This document shows, one piece after another, positions 7,742 through 16,416 of a stretch of 46,977 bases of DNA. Positions within the stretch are counted from its first letter, which is position 1. Every line of letters begins with the position of its first letter. The notes below the pieces were generated by a model. The model worked only from the letters and a program-made list of their open reading frames with translations. It had not been told where the DNA came from and did no database searches. Made by a program: the position numbers and the translations under genes. The DNA is from a virus, in IMG/VR virus record IMGVR_UViG_3300010300_000025, positions 1 to 46,977 of that record. One strand, given 5' to 3'.

Positions 7742-8186
7742 TAAACTCTTCAAGATTTATAAAATAATTTCTAAAAGTTGCTTGTAGAGGTTTAGGTAAA
7801 TCTTTTAATCCTTGTTCAATATAATATGCATTTACACGCGGTATGTTAGGATTATCAATTACAAGTCCACGAGGTGGCTGTGAGGATTCTATTAGTTGCC
7901 ATTTTATAACAATATAAAAATACATACCTTTAGTTAGAGTACCTTTTTTTCTACTACCCTCACGAGCACTGACTTCAGTTATTGATCCATCATATCTCAT
8001 TACAAATTGTCTGTATATGAAACCTTTACTATAGTCTTTATCCGAAGGTGAAGGATAAAATGGTCTTACACCAACAAATGATTGCTTAACTTTGTTATTG
8101 GAAAGCTTATTATATGTATCAGTATCTTCGTATATAGACATTTGACCATTAATCTTATTTACAAATTTATCTAAATCTCTTGCCAT
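7728..8186 (-). CDS. Hypothetical baseplate-region protein, 152 aa
   Basis: An unrecognised protein starting MARDLDKFVNKINGQ. It appears to be mainly beta, with strands around VGVRPFYPS, FIYRQFVMRYDG and MYFYIVIKWQLIE. I chose the ATG at 8186 over the upstream one at 8213 because it overlaps the hub stop codon as TAATG and has a strong AGGAGG 10 nt upstream. Tight coupling to the hub gene and its place as the last gene of the tail cluster suggest a baseplate component or hub assembly factor. The gene is clearly real; its function is unknown. Confidence 0.65.
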   Translation of the reverse strand: MARDLDKFVNKINGQMSIYEDTDTYNKLSNNKVKQSFVGVRPFYPSPSDKDYSKGFIYRQFVMRYDGSITEVSAREGSRKKGTLTKGMYFYIVIKWQLIESSQPPRGLVIDNPNIPRVNAYYIEQGLKDLPKPLQATFRNYFINLEEFKLQD

Positions 8187-11100
8187 TATACTATAGCCTC
8201 CTCTCCATTCCATGATTTATGATTTTGCGGCACTTTACCATAAATTAACTGGTTAGGAGAATATGTCCAATGATGCTTCTCTCCTTTTACTTCACGTCTG
8301 AATCCAAATTTATGGGCATTATTAACTAACCATTTATAGTGACTACTATCTTGCGTACTAAAATCTATAGATCTACCATCCTGATGAGATGAATAGCCAG
8401 GAGGATCAGCAGGATAGAATTTAGGTGGAGTCTTACCACGCTTCACATAGTCAGCATACCCATTGTATAAAGCTTCTTGCTCTTCATATGATCTCCAAGC
8501 ACTATTAACTTTTAATGTTATACCTGCACTAACAGCCTCTTCACACATAGCAATAAATTGTGTAAATACTTTTTCATCGAAATATTCAACTTCTGAACCG
8601 CCATCCTCTGTGGTAAATAGTCCGTCAGAATCATTACCTGAAATACCGTAATATGTTTGCTGCTTGCCAGCTGCACCGTTAACATATGGTACACCAGACA
8701 CATTAAGTAAGCGTTTAAATTTATCAATTCTAGGCTTTACTTGCTCTATAGTATCTACACTAAGTCCAGAAGTAATTGCATTTGCAGGGACTGGTTCAGG
8801 TTCTGGTCTATCAATAACTTTTGGTGCTAACAGATTTTGTACTGGTCTCATAAGTGTACCAATACTCGTAGTCCAACCATCTGCAGAGATACTTTGATCA
8901 ACAGAAGTTGCTTGTAGTGCAACTATATCTCTATATCTGTTAGGTATCATTCCACCTTCATCAATAGTTTCAAGCATTATAGCATTACCCATGTATATTC
9001 CTGATATCCCGTTTAGTGTTAGTGATACATCAATAGGTATAGGAGGACTATATGAAGGATTATTCTCAGATGAATCATGTATAAAAATATTAACGAATTT
9101 TTTTGCAATATTAATAGCTTCTCTATAACCTCGAGTACCACTAATACCTGTAGATAATTCAAAGCGTGTTCTTATAACTAAATCCTGATATCGTTGCCAT
9201 ATATTGGCTAATTCAATATCATCACGTTCACTTTTTATATCGCTAGTAAAGACGGGTTTAAGTCTATCCTCTAATCCTGTACCATATAGTTTAAACATAT
9301 TTATATCACTAGCAACAGTAGATGATGCACCACTCATTGCATAATAAGCTAATGCTTGCACTTCATTAGGTAATTTTGTTTGAATTTTCACATCTCTACA
9401 GATATTATTTAAACCAATACCGGAAAATTTATAAACATTATCACCTTGATCAGCAGCTGTTTTATATCCTTTAAAGTCACCGCCGTAATTTTCATCAATA
9501 ACCATTACTTGCTGTAATGCAGTATTTGTAATAACTTTAAATGACCAAGGGTTACCGCATGCTTCTGAAACTTGTGATAGTATCTCTAATGCAAAATCAT
9601 TTACACTACTTGCATTATTAGAAGCGTCTCTTACAACATTTATATTAACTAATATGTTACGTAGGTAGCCTTCTGAGTAGCCATCTCCAACAGTAAATAT
9701 ATTTTTGATTGAGTTTAATGGTGAAGAGTTAGGTAGTTGCTCTGCATCACCGTTACTTGACACAGTCAATTCCTGACCTGGTAAAATACAAATTGTAGGA
9801 TCTAGAGATCTCAACCACTGATTATTAATAATTTTAACACTTTCATATTGTATAGGCTGCTCTTCATCAGAATCAGAATCTTCCTGTGTCTTTTCTACTG
9901 GATGCAAACTCATAAATTTAGTAGCTAATTTATCATCCCCGACACGTGGCATAAATAATTCATTAATTACATACTCTTCTATAAATCTCCAACTAACATA
10001 AGTTTCACCATATAATGATATACCCATTTCGTTATGATCTGAATTAATAAATGACAATTCATCTTCTTTTGCAACCGTCGTTCCAATACCTGGTCTGCAA
10101 GTCATAATAGGTATATTATTTGTACTATCATATAAAGGAAAAGATACTTCACCCCATGAAAAAGCACTCTGATTATCACCATTAACATTAAACACTATCG
10201 AGTTAGCTATCGTTATATCAGATTCCTCTTGTAAATCTGCAGAATCTTCCAAGTTACTACTAAACTGCTCGTATGCAGAATCAACAACATCCTGCAATTT
10301 AGCTATAGGTGATTTACCATTCCAAAATCTTGCAACATTTGTATACACCTGTTGACCATCATCCCCTACAATTGTGATACCTTTTGCGCCAACTGTGTTT
10401 CCTGCTGAGTCTGTTGCTTGTTCGGTTTGCAAAACTGTCTGTCCAGGATCACTTTCCACTACCCTTGCTTTTAACTTATCATTCTCAACAAAGAATTCAA
10501 TAAATCCTAGACTATCAGCTAAATCACTATACTTTAAAGTAAGTAAGCCTTCAGGTGAAGCTAGAATCTGTGCAACTGTCATATCATCAGTATTTTCACT
10601 TAATATATCAACTGATGCATCTGCTAAATTATCTTTTATAGCATCCTTTGTCTGTTCGGTACGGATTCTGGTAGATTTACCGTTTATAGAGTAGTAAACT
10701 AATTCTACATCATTTACCGGTATTAAAGGTTGCTCTCCACCTATCTCTTTAGCACCGAGATCAATTATATTACCACCTAATTTATATGTGTTAGTTGGTA
10801 TAGCTAATGCTAAACTATTTGGAGATATAATATCTATTTGAATATCGTAAGAACCATCAGAAGCGTTTGACCAGTTAAATTTAGTAACTACACCGAGTAA
10901 TCCGTCGTATAATCCAGCTGTAGTATTTTCCGGATCATTAATTGAGTACTGTTGTAATAAGTCTTCAACATCTAAAGTCTTTTTTATGAGCTCTTCCTGT
11001 ATAGCATCTATATTAGATAATCTACCTTTCTCTTGTAAGTCACCTAAATAAATGGGCTGAACAGTTTTAGTGTTAGAAAACCAGCCCCACTCTATTAAAA

Positions 11101-11557
11101 TACTAGCACCTGGCACCATATACATCATTTCAAGATCTTCTAAATCTTTCTCATGGTAACACTTTAAAGATAATGTAGCTCGTCTAATTGTACCTAAATC
11201 ACCCTTATTACTAACTGTTATACCTGTTATACCAGGAATAGGTGTATTGCGTAGATCACTCCTATACAAGCCTGTATCATTACTGTCTAACCCTACTCTA
11301 CCAAATTGCGGTACTTGTCCGGGACCGAGATCAGTCCCTTGTAAAGAATATAATACATATTTTTGCCATCTAGGTACTGTTTCATTATCCGGATCTAAAG
11401 GTCGAATAAATGGTACAGAACGCATCCATGGAGTACGTGTTGTTATATGATTAAATGATTCTGGGTCCTCTTTAGTAAAGCCTGCTGTTTCAACATCTAA
11501 CGCAGCTTTAATATTAGGATGGATTGAATCTAATACTATTCCTCTATAACTCGGCAT
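8186..11557 (-). CDS. Baseplate hub protein with C-terminal M15 (VanY-type) peptidase domain
   Basis: A 1123-aa protein in the hub position, after the tape measure and LysM-type baseplate genes. The N-terminal ~900 residues are large, mixed beta and of hub type by location; they include the segment LSLKCYHEKDLEDLEMMYMVPGAS. The last ~150 residues match the D-Ala-D-Ala carboxypeptidase/endopeptidase family M15B: SAWRSYEEQEALYNGY, PPGYSSHQDGRSIDF with His1058 and Asp1065, WLVNNAHKFGF, and a final HHW with His1096. These are the expected zinc ligands. The likely role is puncturing peptidoglycan during injection, as T4 gp5 lysozyme does by another chemistry. The GAGGT ribosome binding site supports the start at 11557. 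Confidence 0.8.
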   Translation of the reverse strand: MPSYRGIVLDSIHPNIKAALDVETAGFTKEDPESFNHITTRTPWMRSVPFIRPLDPDNETVPRWQKYVLYSLQGTDLGPGQVPQFGRVGLDSNDTGLYRSDLRNTPIPGITGITVSNKGDLGTIRRATLSLKCYHEKDLEDLEMMYMVPGASILIEWGWFSNTKTVQPIYLGDLQEKGRLSNIDAIQEELIKKTLDVEDLLQQYSINDPENTTAGLYDGLLGVVTKFNWSNASDGSYDIQIDIISPNSLALAIPTNTYKLGGNIIDLGAKEIGGEQPLIPVNDVELVYYSINGKSTRIRTEQTKDAIKDNLADASVDILSENTDDMTVAQILASPEGLLTLKYSDLADSLGFIEFFVENDKLKARVVESDPGQTVLQTEQATDSAGNTVGAKGITIVGDDGQQVYTNVARFWNGKSPIAKLQDVVDSAYEQFSSNLEDSADLQEESDITIANSIVFNVNGDNQSAFSWGEVSFPLYDSTNNIPIMTCRPGIGTTVAKEDELSFINSDHNEMGISLYGETYVSWRFIEEYVINELFMPRVGDDKLATKFMSLHPVEKTQEDSDSDEEQPIQYESVKIINNQWLRSLDPTICILPGQELTVSSNGDAEQLPNSSPLNSIKNIFTVGDGYSEGYLRNILVNINVVRDASNNASSVNDFALEILSQVSEACGNPWSFKVITNTALQQVMVIDENYGGDFKGYKTAADQGDNVYKFSGIGLNNICRDVKIQTKLPNEVQALAYYAMSGASSTVASDINMFKLYGTGLEDRLKPVFTSDIKSERDDIELANIWQRYQDLVIRTRFELSTGISGTRGYREAINIAKKFVNIFIHDSSENNPSYSPPIPIDVSLTLNGISGIYMGNAIMLETIDEGGMIPNRYRDIVALQATSVDQSISADGWTTSIGTLMRPVQNLLAPKVIDRPEPEPVPANAITSGLSVDTIEQVKPRIDKFKRLLNVSGVPYVNGAAGKQQTYYGISGNDSDGLFTTEDGGSEVEYFDEKVFTQFIAMCEEAVSAGITLKVNSAWRSYEEQEALYNGYADYVKRGKTPPKFYPADPPGYSSHQDGRSIDFSTQDSSHYKWLVNNAHKFGFRREVKGEKHHWTYSPNQLIYGKVPQNHKSWNGEEAIV

Positions 11558-12881: not shown

Positions 12882-14555
12882 TTACCCCATCCCTACTGGT
12901 ACTCGTTCTAGATCCATTACTTCAGCTAACTGCGTTCCGGATACATTTAATACTCTTTGTTGAGATAATAAAGCAATCATCTTATCTAGCTTCTCACCTA
13001 TTCCGGAATTTCCACCACCACCCAAGTTGGTACCAGCTATAATAGAATCATCTTTATTTAATTGGATAGAACCTTTAGGACCGGAAACAATCATTCCACC
13101 ATCTGAGCCAATAACACCATCATCCATTTTAGGTGGTTTAGCAGAACTAAATGCACTTGTCATAGATCCCACTGCAGTGGCAATACCAGCTGCAATAGCT
13201 AATGCACCAACACCTATTGTTAAAGCAGACATCGACGTTACATCAGCAATCGCTTTAACTGTAGCAATAGCTGCTAATGCTGCTTGCACTGATTGGATAC
13301 CAATCATAACAGTTTTCAATTTATTTTGATCTGTTAATTGAGAAGCAAGAGATTCTTTTATATTTCTTTCTGCATTCTCCATAGCTTCTGCAGCTGTAGT
13401 TGCATGCTCTTTACTTAATAATTGATCAGCTAGTAATACATTACCTTCCTCAAAAGCTTGGTTTGCTGCTTGTGTATCAGAAACATTTGTAGCAGCATTC
13501 TCAGCTAATGAGTTTGATATTTGTAATTGATCAGCACGCAAACCTGTAGCTTGCTGAAGAGCTTGTATCTCAAGCATGTTAAGATCTGATATATCACCAA
13601 CTTGCTTACGTACTTCATCTAATGCACCTGCTAAATCATTCTCTAAAACTAAAGCCCTAGCTCTATCAAAATTAGCTTGTCTACCAGTTAACACGTTAAA
13701 CTTCATTTGAGATTCAATTGAGCTTTCAACATCCAAAAGGCTATTAGCTAACCCGAGTGCATCGTTTAATTCAAATCCCATCTTTCTAGTTTCTATAGCA
13801 GTACGAATCATATTCTTTAAACTCATACCTGTGGCATTAGAGAAATCTCTACCTGAACCAGCTATATCTTCCATAACCTTACCAAACTTAACACCGTTAG
13901 CATCAGCTAAATTACTAGCTAAGGCTAATGTAGCATTAGCTGTTTCAGAAGATGCACCATCAATCAATTGCATCAAACTAGATAATTTAGTTGCTTCTCC
14001 ACGAGAAATGTTTAATTTATTAGCGGTTATAGATATTGTTTTTGCTTGCTGTGCTGAGAAATTATTACTACTTCTAAAGAGATCATCCATCTCGTTCATA
14101 CTCTCAAGTATCTCCTCTCGAGTAGTATCAATTATCATACCAAATTTTAATTCTTTAGCTATTTCTTGATTAACCTTCTTAGCCTCTCTCAATGTAATAC
14201 CCATAGTATTAGCAGTATTTCTCTGAGTATCAGAAATGAACTTCACAGCATCTTTCATTTTCTCTGTTACAGTTAAAATACTACCAGCAGATACTAATTG
14301 TTTTGTAAGAGATTTCTCTTGTTTAGCATCCTCTTGAGATATAGCTTGCTCAGTTTTAAGTATCTTTCCTTGAGTTGTAGACAGTTTTACATAAGCATTT
14401 TCAAGAGTCTTAGCTTTTTTATTAATTTGCTCTTGCTCTTTACCTTGCTTAATATAGAGATCTAGAATAGCTTCATGCTTTTTTACGAGCTGTTCTGTTC
14501 TAGCTTCTGCTGCTTTTAATGCATTTAAATCTGCTTGTCTATCTCGTTTAGCCAT
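12882..14555 (-). CDS. Tail tape measure protein (gp29-like)
   Basis: This 557-aa protein is almost entirely helical. Coiled-coil character is strong in residues 1-130 and the central region; a hydrophobic, alanine-rich stretch lies at about 410-470 (VQAALAAIATVKAIAD, GVGALAIAAGIATAVG); and the Gly-rich C-terminal part (MDDGVIGSDGGMIVSGPKGS, DDSIIAGTNLGGGG) is common in tape measure C-termini. T4 gp29 is 590 aa, so a T4-like tail length is expected. Tape measure proteins set tail length inside the tube and pass through the membrane during injection. It follows the tube gene, the gp26-family gene and a 59-aa ORF, and precedes baseplate genes, as in other contractile tails. No Shine-Dalgarno sequence is evident. 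Confidence 0.82.
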   Translation of the reverse strand: MAKRDRQADLNALKAAEARTEQLVKKHEAILDLYIKQGKEQEQINKKAKTLENAYVKLSTTQGKILKTEQAISQEDAKQEKSLTKQLVSAGSILTVTEKMKDAVKFISDTQRNTANTMGITLREAKKVNQEIAKELKFGMIIDTTREEILESMNEMDDLFRSSNNFSAQQAKTISITANKLNISRGEATKLSSLMQLIDGASSETANATLALASNLADANGVKFGKVMEDIAGSGRDFSNATGMSLKNMIRTAIETRKMGFELNDALGLANSLLDVESSIESQMKFNVLTGRQANFDRARALVLENDLAGALDEVRKQVGDISDLNMLEIQALQQATGLRADQLQISNSLAENAATNVSDTQAANQAFEEGNVLLADQLLSKEHATTAAEAMENAERNIKESLASQLTDQNKLKTVMIGIQSVQAALAAIATVKAIADVTSMSALTIGVGALAIAAGIATAVGSMTSAFSSAKPPKMDDGVIGSDGGMIVSGPKGSIQLNKDDSIIAGTNLGGGGNSGIGEKLDKMIALLSQQRVLNVSGTQLAEVMDLERVPVGMG

Positions 14556-14558
14556 AGG

Positions 14559-14738
14559 TTAGTTTTGCTCTAAATCTTGTTCCAATTCTTTATTCAGTTG
14601 TTCAAGTTCAGCTGTAAGGTCTTTAATGCTTTGTTGAATTTTAGGATTTTGTAACGCTTTTCTTCTCGCTATAGATTTTATACCTTTCTTAGCGAAAAAT
14701 AATCCTAGCATTGCAGTTACTATTTTTTGTAAATTCAT
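14559..14738 (-). CDS. 59-aa helical protein before the tape measure gene
   Basis: A short gene from ATG at 14738 to TAA at 14559. It starts MNLQKIVTAMLGLFFAKKGI, with one short amphipathic or membrane-prone helix, followed by a basic stretch (KSIARRKALQ) and a C-terminal coiled coil (IKDLTAELEQLNKELEQDLE). It has a good GGGAG ribosome binding site and a late-type promoter motif at 14763-14773, and ends 3 nt before the tape measure ATG. These signals make it a real gene. Function unknown; its position suggests tail assembly, for example a partner of the tape measure. Confidence 0.7.
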   Translation of the reverse strand: MNLQKIVTAMLGLFFAKKGIKSIARRKALQNPKIQQSIKDLTAELEQLNKELEQDLEQN

Positions 14739-14779: not shown

Positions 14780-14992
14780 CTACCTTTTACGAGTCTTTCT
14801 TTGCAATTCTTTATTCTGTTTTTCCATATGCTCTTTACGTTCTTTGAACGTTTCATTTAGACATTTTATATGAAATCTGCGTAACCATACAGGCATATTG
14901 TATACATCAGAGAAAGAGAATCCACCTCCACCATTGTAAACAAGGTAGAATATCTCTTTATGTATTATGGGCTTGTAATCAAACCCTAGGCC
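14780..14992 (-). CDS. Frameshift extension of the gp26-family protein (probable tail assembly chaperone C-terminal part)
   Basis: From the GGC codon at 14992 to TAG at 14780 there is a 70-residue open frame (ending about LGFDYKPIIHKEIFYL, NGGGGFSFSDVYNMPVWLRR, then a charged helix to KTRKR). It has no ATG, GTG or TTG before the conserved-looking part; an in-frame TAA lies eight codons upstream of the T7 run, and the only Met options are late (NMPVW). It is in the +1 frame of the gp26-family gene and overlaps that gene's last codons at a TTTTTTT run (14993-14999). A +1 or -2 shift there would fuse it to the upstream protein (about 350 aa). Position before the tape measure gene matches tail chaperones that use frameshifting. 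Confidence 0.6.
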   Translation of the reverse strand, partial: GLGFDYKPIIHKEIFYLVYNGGGGFSFSDVYNMPVWLRRFHIKCLNETFKERKEHMEKQNKELQRKTRKR

Positions 14993-15830
14993 AAAAAAAG
15001 TCGAGTCCGATGGGTAAATTTACTCTTGAATCAAAGTTAAATTCTGAGTTTGTAACATGAACTGTTAAATCGATATCTGGGCTAACAGTAAGTATATAAT
15101 TACGTAATTGTAGAGAGTCTCTTGCAATTAACATATTATCAATAAAGTTGTTTATGACTGATTTGTCTGTATCACCATCAATAGATAAAATTTGGTGTTT
15201 TAATCTAGTTGTTATTCCTTTAGAGTGTCCTCGTAAAGATTGCTGCTCTAACTGACTAGCAATACTAACTTCCTCTTCCCCTGTAAGTAGCTTAAATACA
15301 ATTTTTTGTTTACCAACAGGTAGAGTGAATTCAAATTCGTTAGAGTTATTATATAGAGATTCATCAATTATTTGATTACCTACCTCAGTTAAGTCAACGA
15401 CATGAGGGAAAGAATCAGAAGTGCCAGGAATATTTACATTTATTTCGTATTCTGGTCCGTATCCTAGAACACGTGCTGCTATCATAATAGCGTTTTTATC
15501 ACCTAAAATAAGATCAGAGTAATTAACAGCTTTTCCATCACCATTACCAACTATCAAAGCATCAAACAATTTATCTAAAGCTTTACCTTGTTTAATTAAT
15601 GTAGGGTTAGTAAGTATATCTTCCTCTCTTGCAGTCATATACTTCATTTCTACTTTCCCACTAGATAATGGATTATCTTTAGAATAAACCAAACCTTTAC
15701 TAGGTAAATCAACTATTTCAGTAGGAAATTCAAAATTACCAGCAGCTGCTGATCTAGCTATTGCTTGTTCTTTAATATCTTTATTTGTTACTCCACCTGG
15801 ATAATCTGTATCTATAACTTGTCCTGACAT
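14979..15830 (-). CDS. gp26/T4_baseplate-family protein
   Basis: The 283-aa protein has the signature of the T4 gp26-related family widespread in marine T4-like phages: FEFPTEIVDLPSKGLVYSKD, then LSSGKVEMKYMTAREEDILT, QGKALDKLFDALIV, and an acidic, hydrophobic C-terminal half ending FNFDSRVNLPIGLDFFWPRV. In T4, gp26 is assigned to baseplate hub assembly. Here the gene lies between the tube gene and the tape measure gene, the usual place of tail assembly chaperones. The ATG at 15830 has AAGGAG and a late-type motif at 15861-15871. Its end overlaps a start-less ORF in the +1 frame at a T7 run, so two products may be made. Confidence 0.75.
   Translation of the reverse strand: MSGQVIDTDYPGGVTNKDIKEQAIARSAAAGNFEFPTEIVDLPSKGLVYSKDNPLSSGKVEMKYMTAREEDILTNPTLIKQGKALDKLFDALIVGNGDGKAVNYSDLILGDKNAIMIAARVLGYGPEYEINVNIPGTSDSFPHVVDLTEVGNQIIDESLYNNSNEFEFTLPVGKQKIVFKLLTGEEEVSIASQLEQQSLRGHSKGITTRLKHQILSIDGDTDKSVINNFIDNMLIARDSLQLRNYILTVSPDIDLTVHVTNSEFNFDSRVNLPIGLDFFWPRV
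14993..14999 (-). other. T7 homopolymer, candidate ribosomal slippage site
   Basis: On the minus strand the gp26-family frame reads GAC TTT TTT TGG CCT AGG GTT TGA. Shifting +1 (or -2) on the T run gives TTT TTT GGC CTA GGG TTT GAT and enters the 70-codon downstream ORF. It sits four codons before the stop codon. The run could also cause transcriptional slippage. Confidence 0.55.
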
Positions 15831-15927: not shown

Positions 15928-16416
15928 TTAGAATTCTAATACTGCATAATCGTATTTAACAGTAATGTTAATTTCTAATGGCTGATCATTTGCCCAATCA
16001 AGTTCACCCATATCAGTAGCAGATACAAATGCACCTTTAACCACCCATCTCTCTCTAATATCACCTTGAGGTCCTAAAACTTCAAAAGTAATATCTTCTT
16101 TATAGAAATCAGGATAACCAGCTGTACCGGTTGCAGATTCATAACCTCTACGAACCCACTCCATAACGTTTTGAGCTCCTGAAGGTACGATTGGGTCCCA
16201 AAGACCGATTGTAATATCATTCCAATCTGCTTTACCTTGTAATTTACGTTTTGTATTAATATGATCGATTACAACATCACCAAATGTTACACTAGGTCGT
16301 GTTACTTTTTTACAAATGAATGATGGTATATCGCCAACTGACATAATGAATCTATTCGCCACTTTAGGTGTGAACGAGTTAAACATTAATTGCTGTGCGC
16401 TGATAGTTTCTGCCAT
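15928..16416 (-). CDS. Tail tube protein (gp19-like)
   Basis: A 162-aa protein, the same size as T4 gp19 (163 aa), directly after the sheath gene as in T4. It starts MAETISAQQLMFNSFTPKVA and shows the tube-fold pattern common to marine gp19: RFIMSVGDIPSFICKKVTRP, a central DITIGLWDPIVPSGAQ, and the end LDWANDQPLEINITVKYDYA. It forms the inner tube of the contractile tail around the tape measure. It has an AGGAG ribosome binding site, its own late-type promoter motif (16436-16446) and a strong terminator, as expected for a product made in many copies. Confidence 0.85.
   Translation of the reverse strand: MAETISAQQLMFNSFTPKVANRFIMSVGDIPSFICKKVTRPSVTFGDVVIDHINTKRKLQGKADWNDITIGLWDPIVPSGAQNVMEWVRRGYESATGTAGYPDFYKEDITFEVLGPQGDIRERWVVKGAFVSATDMGELDWANDQPLEINITVKYDYAVLEF

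Follow-up and report, generated by a model that had tools for sequence, protein, structure and literature searches.

Two-form tail assembly chaperones (TACs) bind the tape measure and tail tube proteins and are absent from the virion, the ratio of the two products being set by a translational frameshift. Vladimirov, Gautam and Davidson (2022, Virology 566:9-15) reportedly described such two-form TACs, with a short form (TAC-N) and a long form (TAC-NC), in T4-like phages. Later papers refer to this work for separate short and long chaperone genes (PMC10885494) and for poly-T signals of the -1 type (PMC12846349); in T4-like phages, both the identity of these proteins as chaperones and their occurrence in two forms were known before. 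In T4 the short and long forms are two genes, gp26 and gp51 (PMC10885494); gp26 has no frameshift-type overlap, and gp51 is a gp26-like protein with an extra domain. By contrast, the phages P-SSM2, S-PM2, HTVC008M, KVP40 and phiM12 carry the homologous domain in the -1 frame, on the site U_UUU_UUY. A canonical -1 TAC likewise has a slippery X_XXY_YYZ heptamer and its C-domain in the -1 frame, and the lambda pair gpG/gpGT is made by a -1 shift. Other directions have also been described, namely a -2 shift in phage Mu and a likely +1 TAC in the archaeal virus HSTV-2 (PMC5009743).

The locus considered here lies within 46,977 nucleotides of viral DNA (the window, meaning the whole stretch analysed), and very probably represents the chaperone locus of an uncultured T4-like myovirus in which a +1 slip on UUU yields TAC-NC besides TAC-N. 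A gp26-family ORF of 283 aa (PF12322/phrog_150; 15830-14979, minus strand, as are all features below), the putative TAC-N, ends in GAC TTT TTT TGG CCT AGG GTT TGA, with three sense codons and then the stop following TGG in the 0 frame. The run of seven T residues (14999-14993) is the candidate shift site TTT TTT T, read as UUU_UGG C. Overlapping it, the +1 frame opens at 15019 after a TAA (15022-15020) situated eight codons ahead of the run, and closes at TAG (14782-14780); it has 79 codons in total, or 72 codons and a stop when counted from FFGL, the latter part (14780..14998) encoding a C-terminal domain, TAC-C, that begins FFGLGFDY and ends KR. The -1 frame shuts within a few codons, which sets the window apart from the canonical -1 type. 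This arrangement of gene end, T run, upstream TAA and overlapping ORF, as given in the preliminary description, was confirmed from the letters themselves, and it is far beyond chance expectation. The predicted fusion, TAC-NC, would be 349 aa long, with the junction ..GLDFFGLGFDYK.. (...GLDFF-GLGFDYK...).

The chaperone gene is flanked by tail tube and tape measure genes. Upstream is a gp19-like tail tube protein (15928..16416; phrog_4542, E 2.7e-25). Downstream, a small ORF of 59 aa (14558..14738), confined to the five closest relatives (L001-L005), precedes a probable tape measure protein of 557 aa (12882..14555). The latter had no match in family-library searches and is identified by its position and by its homology to the long gene that occupies this position in Mel-JY01 and other relatives. 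The order tube, chaperone, tape measure is kept in Mel-JY01, immuto, SP-15 and LIS04. It is also that of lambda, where a chaperone with a frameshifted extension stands between the same two genes, although sequence homology between the lambda proteins and those of the window was not detected.

Several lines of evidence bear on the proposal, made in the preliminary description, that the gp26 family is the T4-like counterpart of the tail chaperones. TAC-N passes the Pfam threshold for PF12322, the family of T4 gp26 and gp51, with 25.4 bits against a cut-off of 24.5, and matches phrog_150 (baseplate hub) with an E value of 1.9e-11. When profiles of the +1 fusions were compared with T4 gp51 and the -1 fusions by HMM-HMM alignment, both domains were covered (probability 97.9%, E 6e-13), and the C-domain alone matched the C-terminus of gp51 and the -1-frame domains (probability 96%, E 4e-9). 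Twelve of 47 C-domains alone also touched phrog_634, ‘baseplate hub assembly catalyst’ (best E 0.0026), which covers the C-terminus of gp51. TAC-N and the C-domain were folded as separate models rather than as a fusion. The AlphaFold2 model of TAC-N is confident (pLDDT 89.5), and its best PDB match, a weak one that hints at a structural likeness, is the HK97 tail assembly chaperone 2ob9 (E 0.68, probability 0.63; first of 350,542 chains). A fold search with the C-domain model gave no significant match, and a profile search of solved structures gave no convincing one. Searches with PF12322 of the window's own record and of W07, W08 and W09 missed divergent members, which direct comparison finds in at least three, and absence in such searches therefore weighs little. 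Taken at the level of sequence homology, the proposal is supported: the gp26 family appears to be the tail assembly chaperone of T4-like phages, and the match to the extra C-terminus of gp51 argues that the chaperone is made as both TAC-N and TAC-NC. T4 thus shares with the window the PF12322 N-domain, the C-domain as judged by HMM-HMM comparison, and the possession of a short and a long form, the difference being that two genes serve in T4 where one gene and a frameshift would serve here.

The preliminary description had also looked to related phages for an overlap at the homopolymer, and the comparison upheld it. Of 128 distinct homologous loci collected with several seeds, 125 have a long +1-frame ORF in this position, as do 52 of 54 distinct loci from a further seed set that partly overlaps the 128; the two exceptions in the latter are L212, a repeat of the L181 contig, and L242, whose gene contains an early stop. 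In the first homologue set every junction that could be read is TTT TTT TGG CCN with the domain following in the +1 frame, one contig (L055) ending too early for its junction to be read. Isolates with the +1 ORF include Mel-JY01 (TTT TTT TGG CCT), immuto (TTT CTT TGG CCT), RM378 (TTT TTT TGG AAT), SP-15 (TTT TTT CAC), LIS04 (TTT TTT AGT) and GXN1 (TTC TTT CGT); the site in the huge phage LR756508 is TTT CTA TTC. Sequencing error was considered as a source of the overlap and ruled out, since many independent assemblies as well as isolates show the +1 ORF. Over the 121 distinct loci that carry the tryptophan codon, the junction DNA is much more conserved than the sequence flanking it: T-6, T-5, T-2, T0, G+1 and G+2 are invariant in all 121, and C+3 and C+4 in 120. 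The invariant residues of the +1 frame (F2, G3) begin right at the junction. Past the gp26 stop, substitutions in 46 non-overlapping locus pairs number 281, 169 and 842 at codon positions 1, 2 and 3 of the +1 frame, a pattern which indicates that this frame is translated. Together, the conserved site and the coding selection in the +1 frame favour a programmed shift into that frame on the T run, as originally suggested.

Whether such a shift would go forwards by one base or backwards by two had been left open, and the variants of the site now speak for the former. In every +1-frame variant an in-frame TTT is retained with T or C as the next base, the UUU_Y motif, and at each of them a tRNA-Phe slipping +1 re-pairs fully; members of the immuto-like clade (TTT CTT TGG) contain, in addition, CTT plus a following T, the tetranucleotide on which RF2 shifts. 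The same two-form chaperone, with an extra Phe at the junction, could also arise by a -2 slip, the kind used by phage Mu. Such a slip would likewise allow full re-pairing of tRNA-Phe on TTTTTTT, and the hairpin described below, 6 nt beyond the run, has the spacing usual for backward shifts. However, full re-pairing is available to the +1 slip and not to the -2 slip at TTC TTT TGG (TTC being the first codon in 10 of the 121 distinct loci), at TTC TTT CGT in GXN1, and at TTT CTA TGG, where only a +1 slip at the first TTT re-pairs well, and the -2 reading is consequently unlikely. The run of seven T residues in the window and most relatives might also invite slippage of RNA polymerase, leading to mRNAs with one base missing or two added, and yet homologues with TTTCTTTGG, TTCTTTTGG, TTTCTATGG and TTTCTTTACC, in which runs do not exceed four, still keep the +1 architecture; we regard this explanation as very improbable indeed. 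UUU_Ynn is known to be especially +1-prone in bacteria, and CUU_U is the site of RF2 (PMC5009743). We infer that the programmed shift goes +1 from the re-pairing of the +1 slip at all variants, its failure for -2 at the TTC sites, the absence of long runs from some homologues and the known proneness of UUU_Ynn.

Alternatively, the C-domain might be translated on its own, either from a start within the overlap or by ribosomes that re-initiate once gp26 has ended, and this seems to be true of three of the 128 loci. L181, L186 and L088 have the C-domain as a separate ORF in another frame, whose own ATG lies at the gp26 stop or shortly behind it (TAGAAATG, TAGAAATCATG and TAATG, respectively; gp26 stops at 2218, 2215 and about 3769). 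The window itself has no ATG, GTG or TTG in the +1 frame ahead of the ATG in ‘...DVYNMPVW’, that is, before the folded part. The description of the ORF as start-less thus holds strictly for the window and for 24 of 121 relatives, which have none of the three codons, while 67 of 121 lack ATG; it does not extend to the many relatives in which ATG, GTG or TTG, including non-ATG or distant starts, are present in the frame. Against a general separate start also stand the junction DNA, conserved far beyond its surroundings, and gp51, a relative's gene product that is functional in fused form, and for the group as a whole this reading is quite unlikely. Homologues with a separately started downstream ORF had been named beforehand as the observation that would count against a frameshift; they are limited to these 3 of 128 loci, and because the slip site is changed or gone in each, they are better read as secondary loss than as refutation. 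L181 and L186 are nearest to immuto-like sequences, L186 falling inside the CTT clade on the protein tree, and these two at least look like secondary losses of the frameshift.

Returning to the +1 slip, a candidate stimulator is found in a hairpin of 7 bp, GGGTTTG-ATTA-CAAGCCC (14986-14969), which begins 6 nt past the T run and takes in the gp26 stop codon. Of the cells in the alignment of the stem for the window's clade, 94% are paired and 14 cells in 4 pairs are changed on both sides; none of 500 shuffles reached the paired percentage, and sliding the partner registers destroys the covariation. These figures carry some selection bias, because the clade, whose sequences are related, was first noticed by its stems and then checked on the protein tree, where it consists of neighbouring leaves. 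The hairpin is limited to this clade: no downstream structure conserved across all clades was found, and the other clades lack the window's stem. In 109 of 121 loci the surroundings of the site contain no Shine-Dalgarno-like element, and in the other 12 one lies 9-10 nt upstream. With this element missing so widely and the hairpin clade-specific, the site has no known general stimulator; within the window's clade the hairpin probably raises the rate of the shift.

The following scheme would account for these observations. Ordinary translation would give the gp26-like TAC-N of 283 aa. In a minority of cases, while the A site presents a still unread UGG, the peptidyl-tRNA-Phe paired with UUU would move forwards by one base to the UUU that overlaps it, helped in the window's clade by the hairpin, and the ribosome would go on in the +1 frame to give the longer TAC-NC. 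By analogy with lambda gpG/gpGT, many copies of TAC-N and few of TAC-NC may coat the tape measure protein, with the C-domain recruiting tail tube subunits. The shift-prone tetranucleotides are those of the RF2 (CUU_U) and UUU_Ynn +1 sites. RF2, however, combines a stop codon in the A site with a Shine-Dalgarno element some 3 nt ahead of the shift codon, whereas in the window the A-site codon is UGG and there is no such element at the RF2 spacing.

The cyanophage, HTVC008M, KVP40 and phiM12 genes join homologous N- and C-domains at the same FF on a U-rich site, and differ in frame and motif: their C-domain is read in -1 on U_UUU_UUY, that of the window group in +1 on UUU_Y. As the same U-rich junction serves -1 in the cyanophages and KVP40 and apparently +1 in the window group, the direction of frameshifting would have switched between homologues at a conserved junction. 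It is a reasonable, if somewhat uncertain, proposition that a hairpin-assisted, stop-codon-independent +1 shift at UUU_UGG is the usual route to the long chaperone in a large, mostly uncultured T4-like group, and that such a switch took place. Relative to the earlier work as cited in PMC10885494 and PMC12846349, what is added here is the putative +1 direction, a near-invariant UUU_Y site over this large uncultured group, and the clade-specific hairpin. The homologous chaperone genes form a natural series in which the same domain pair is served by -1, by +1, by two genes or by a separate start, and with it one can test directly how the direction of frameshifting evolved and what the +1-associated hairpin does.

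A further consequence would be a correct two-product annotation for an abundant group of aquatic phages. In the deposited annotations of the isolates PP395634.1 (L081), NC_055915.1 (L082) and OQ999172.1 (L087), the +1 domain is given as a separate overlapping hypothetical gene, shortened to a fragment, or missing. Elsewhere in the window, near the tail cluster, a gene at 8186-11557 encodes a protein of 1123 aa whose C-terminal part contains a VanY D-Ala-D-Ala carboxypeptidase domain (residues 992-1095); it may be a hub protein to which a cell-wall peptidase has been fused.
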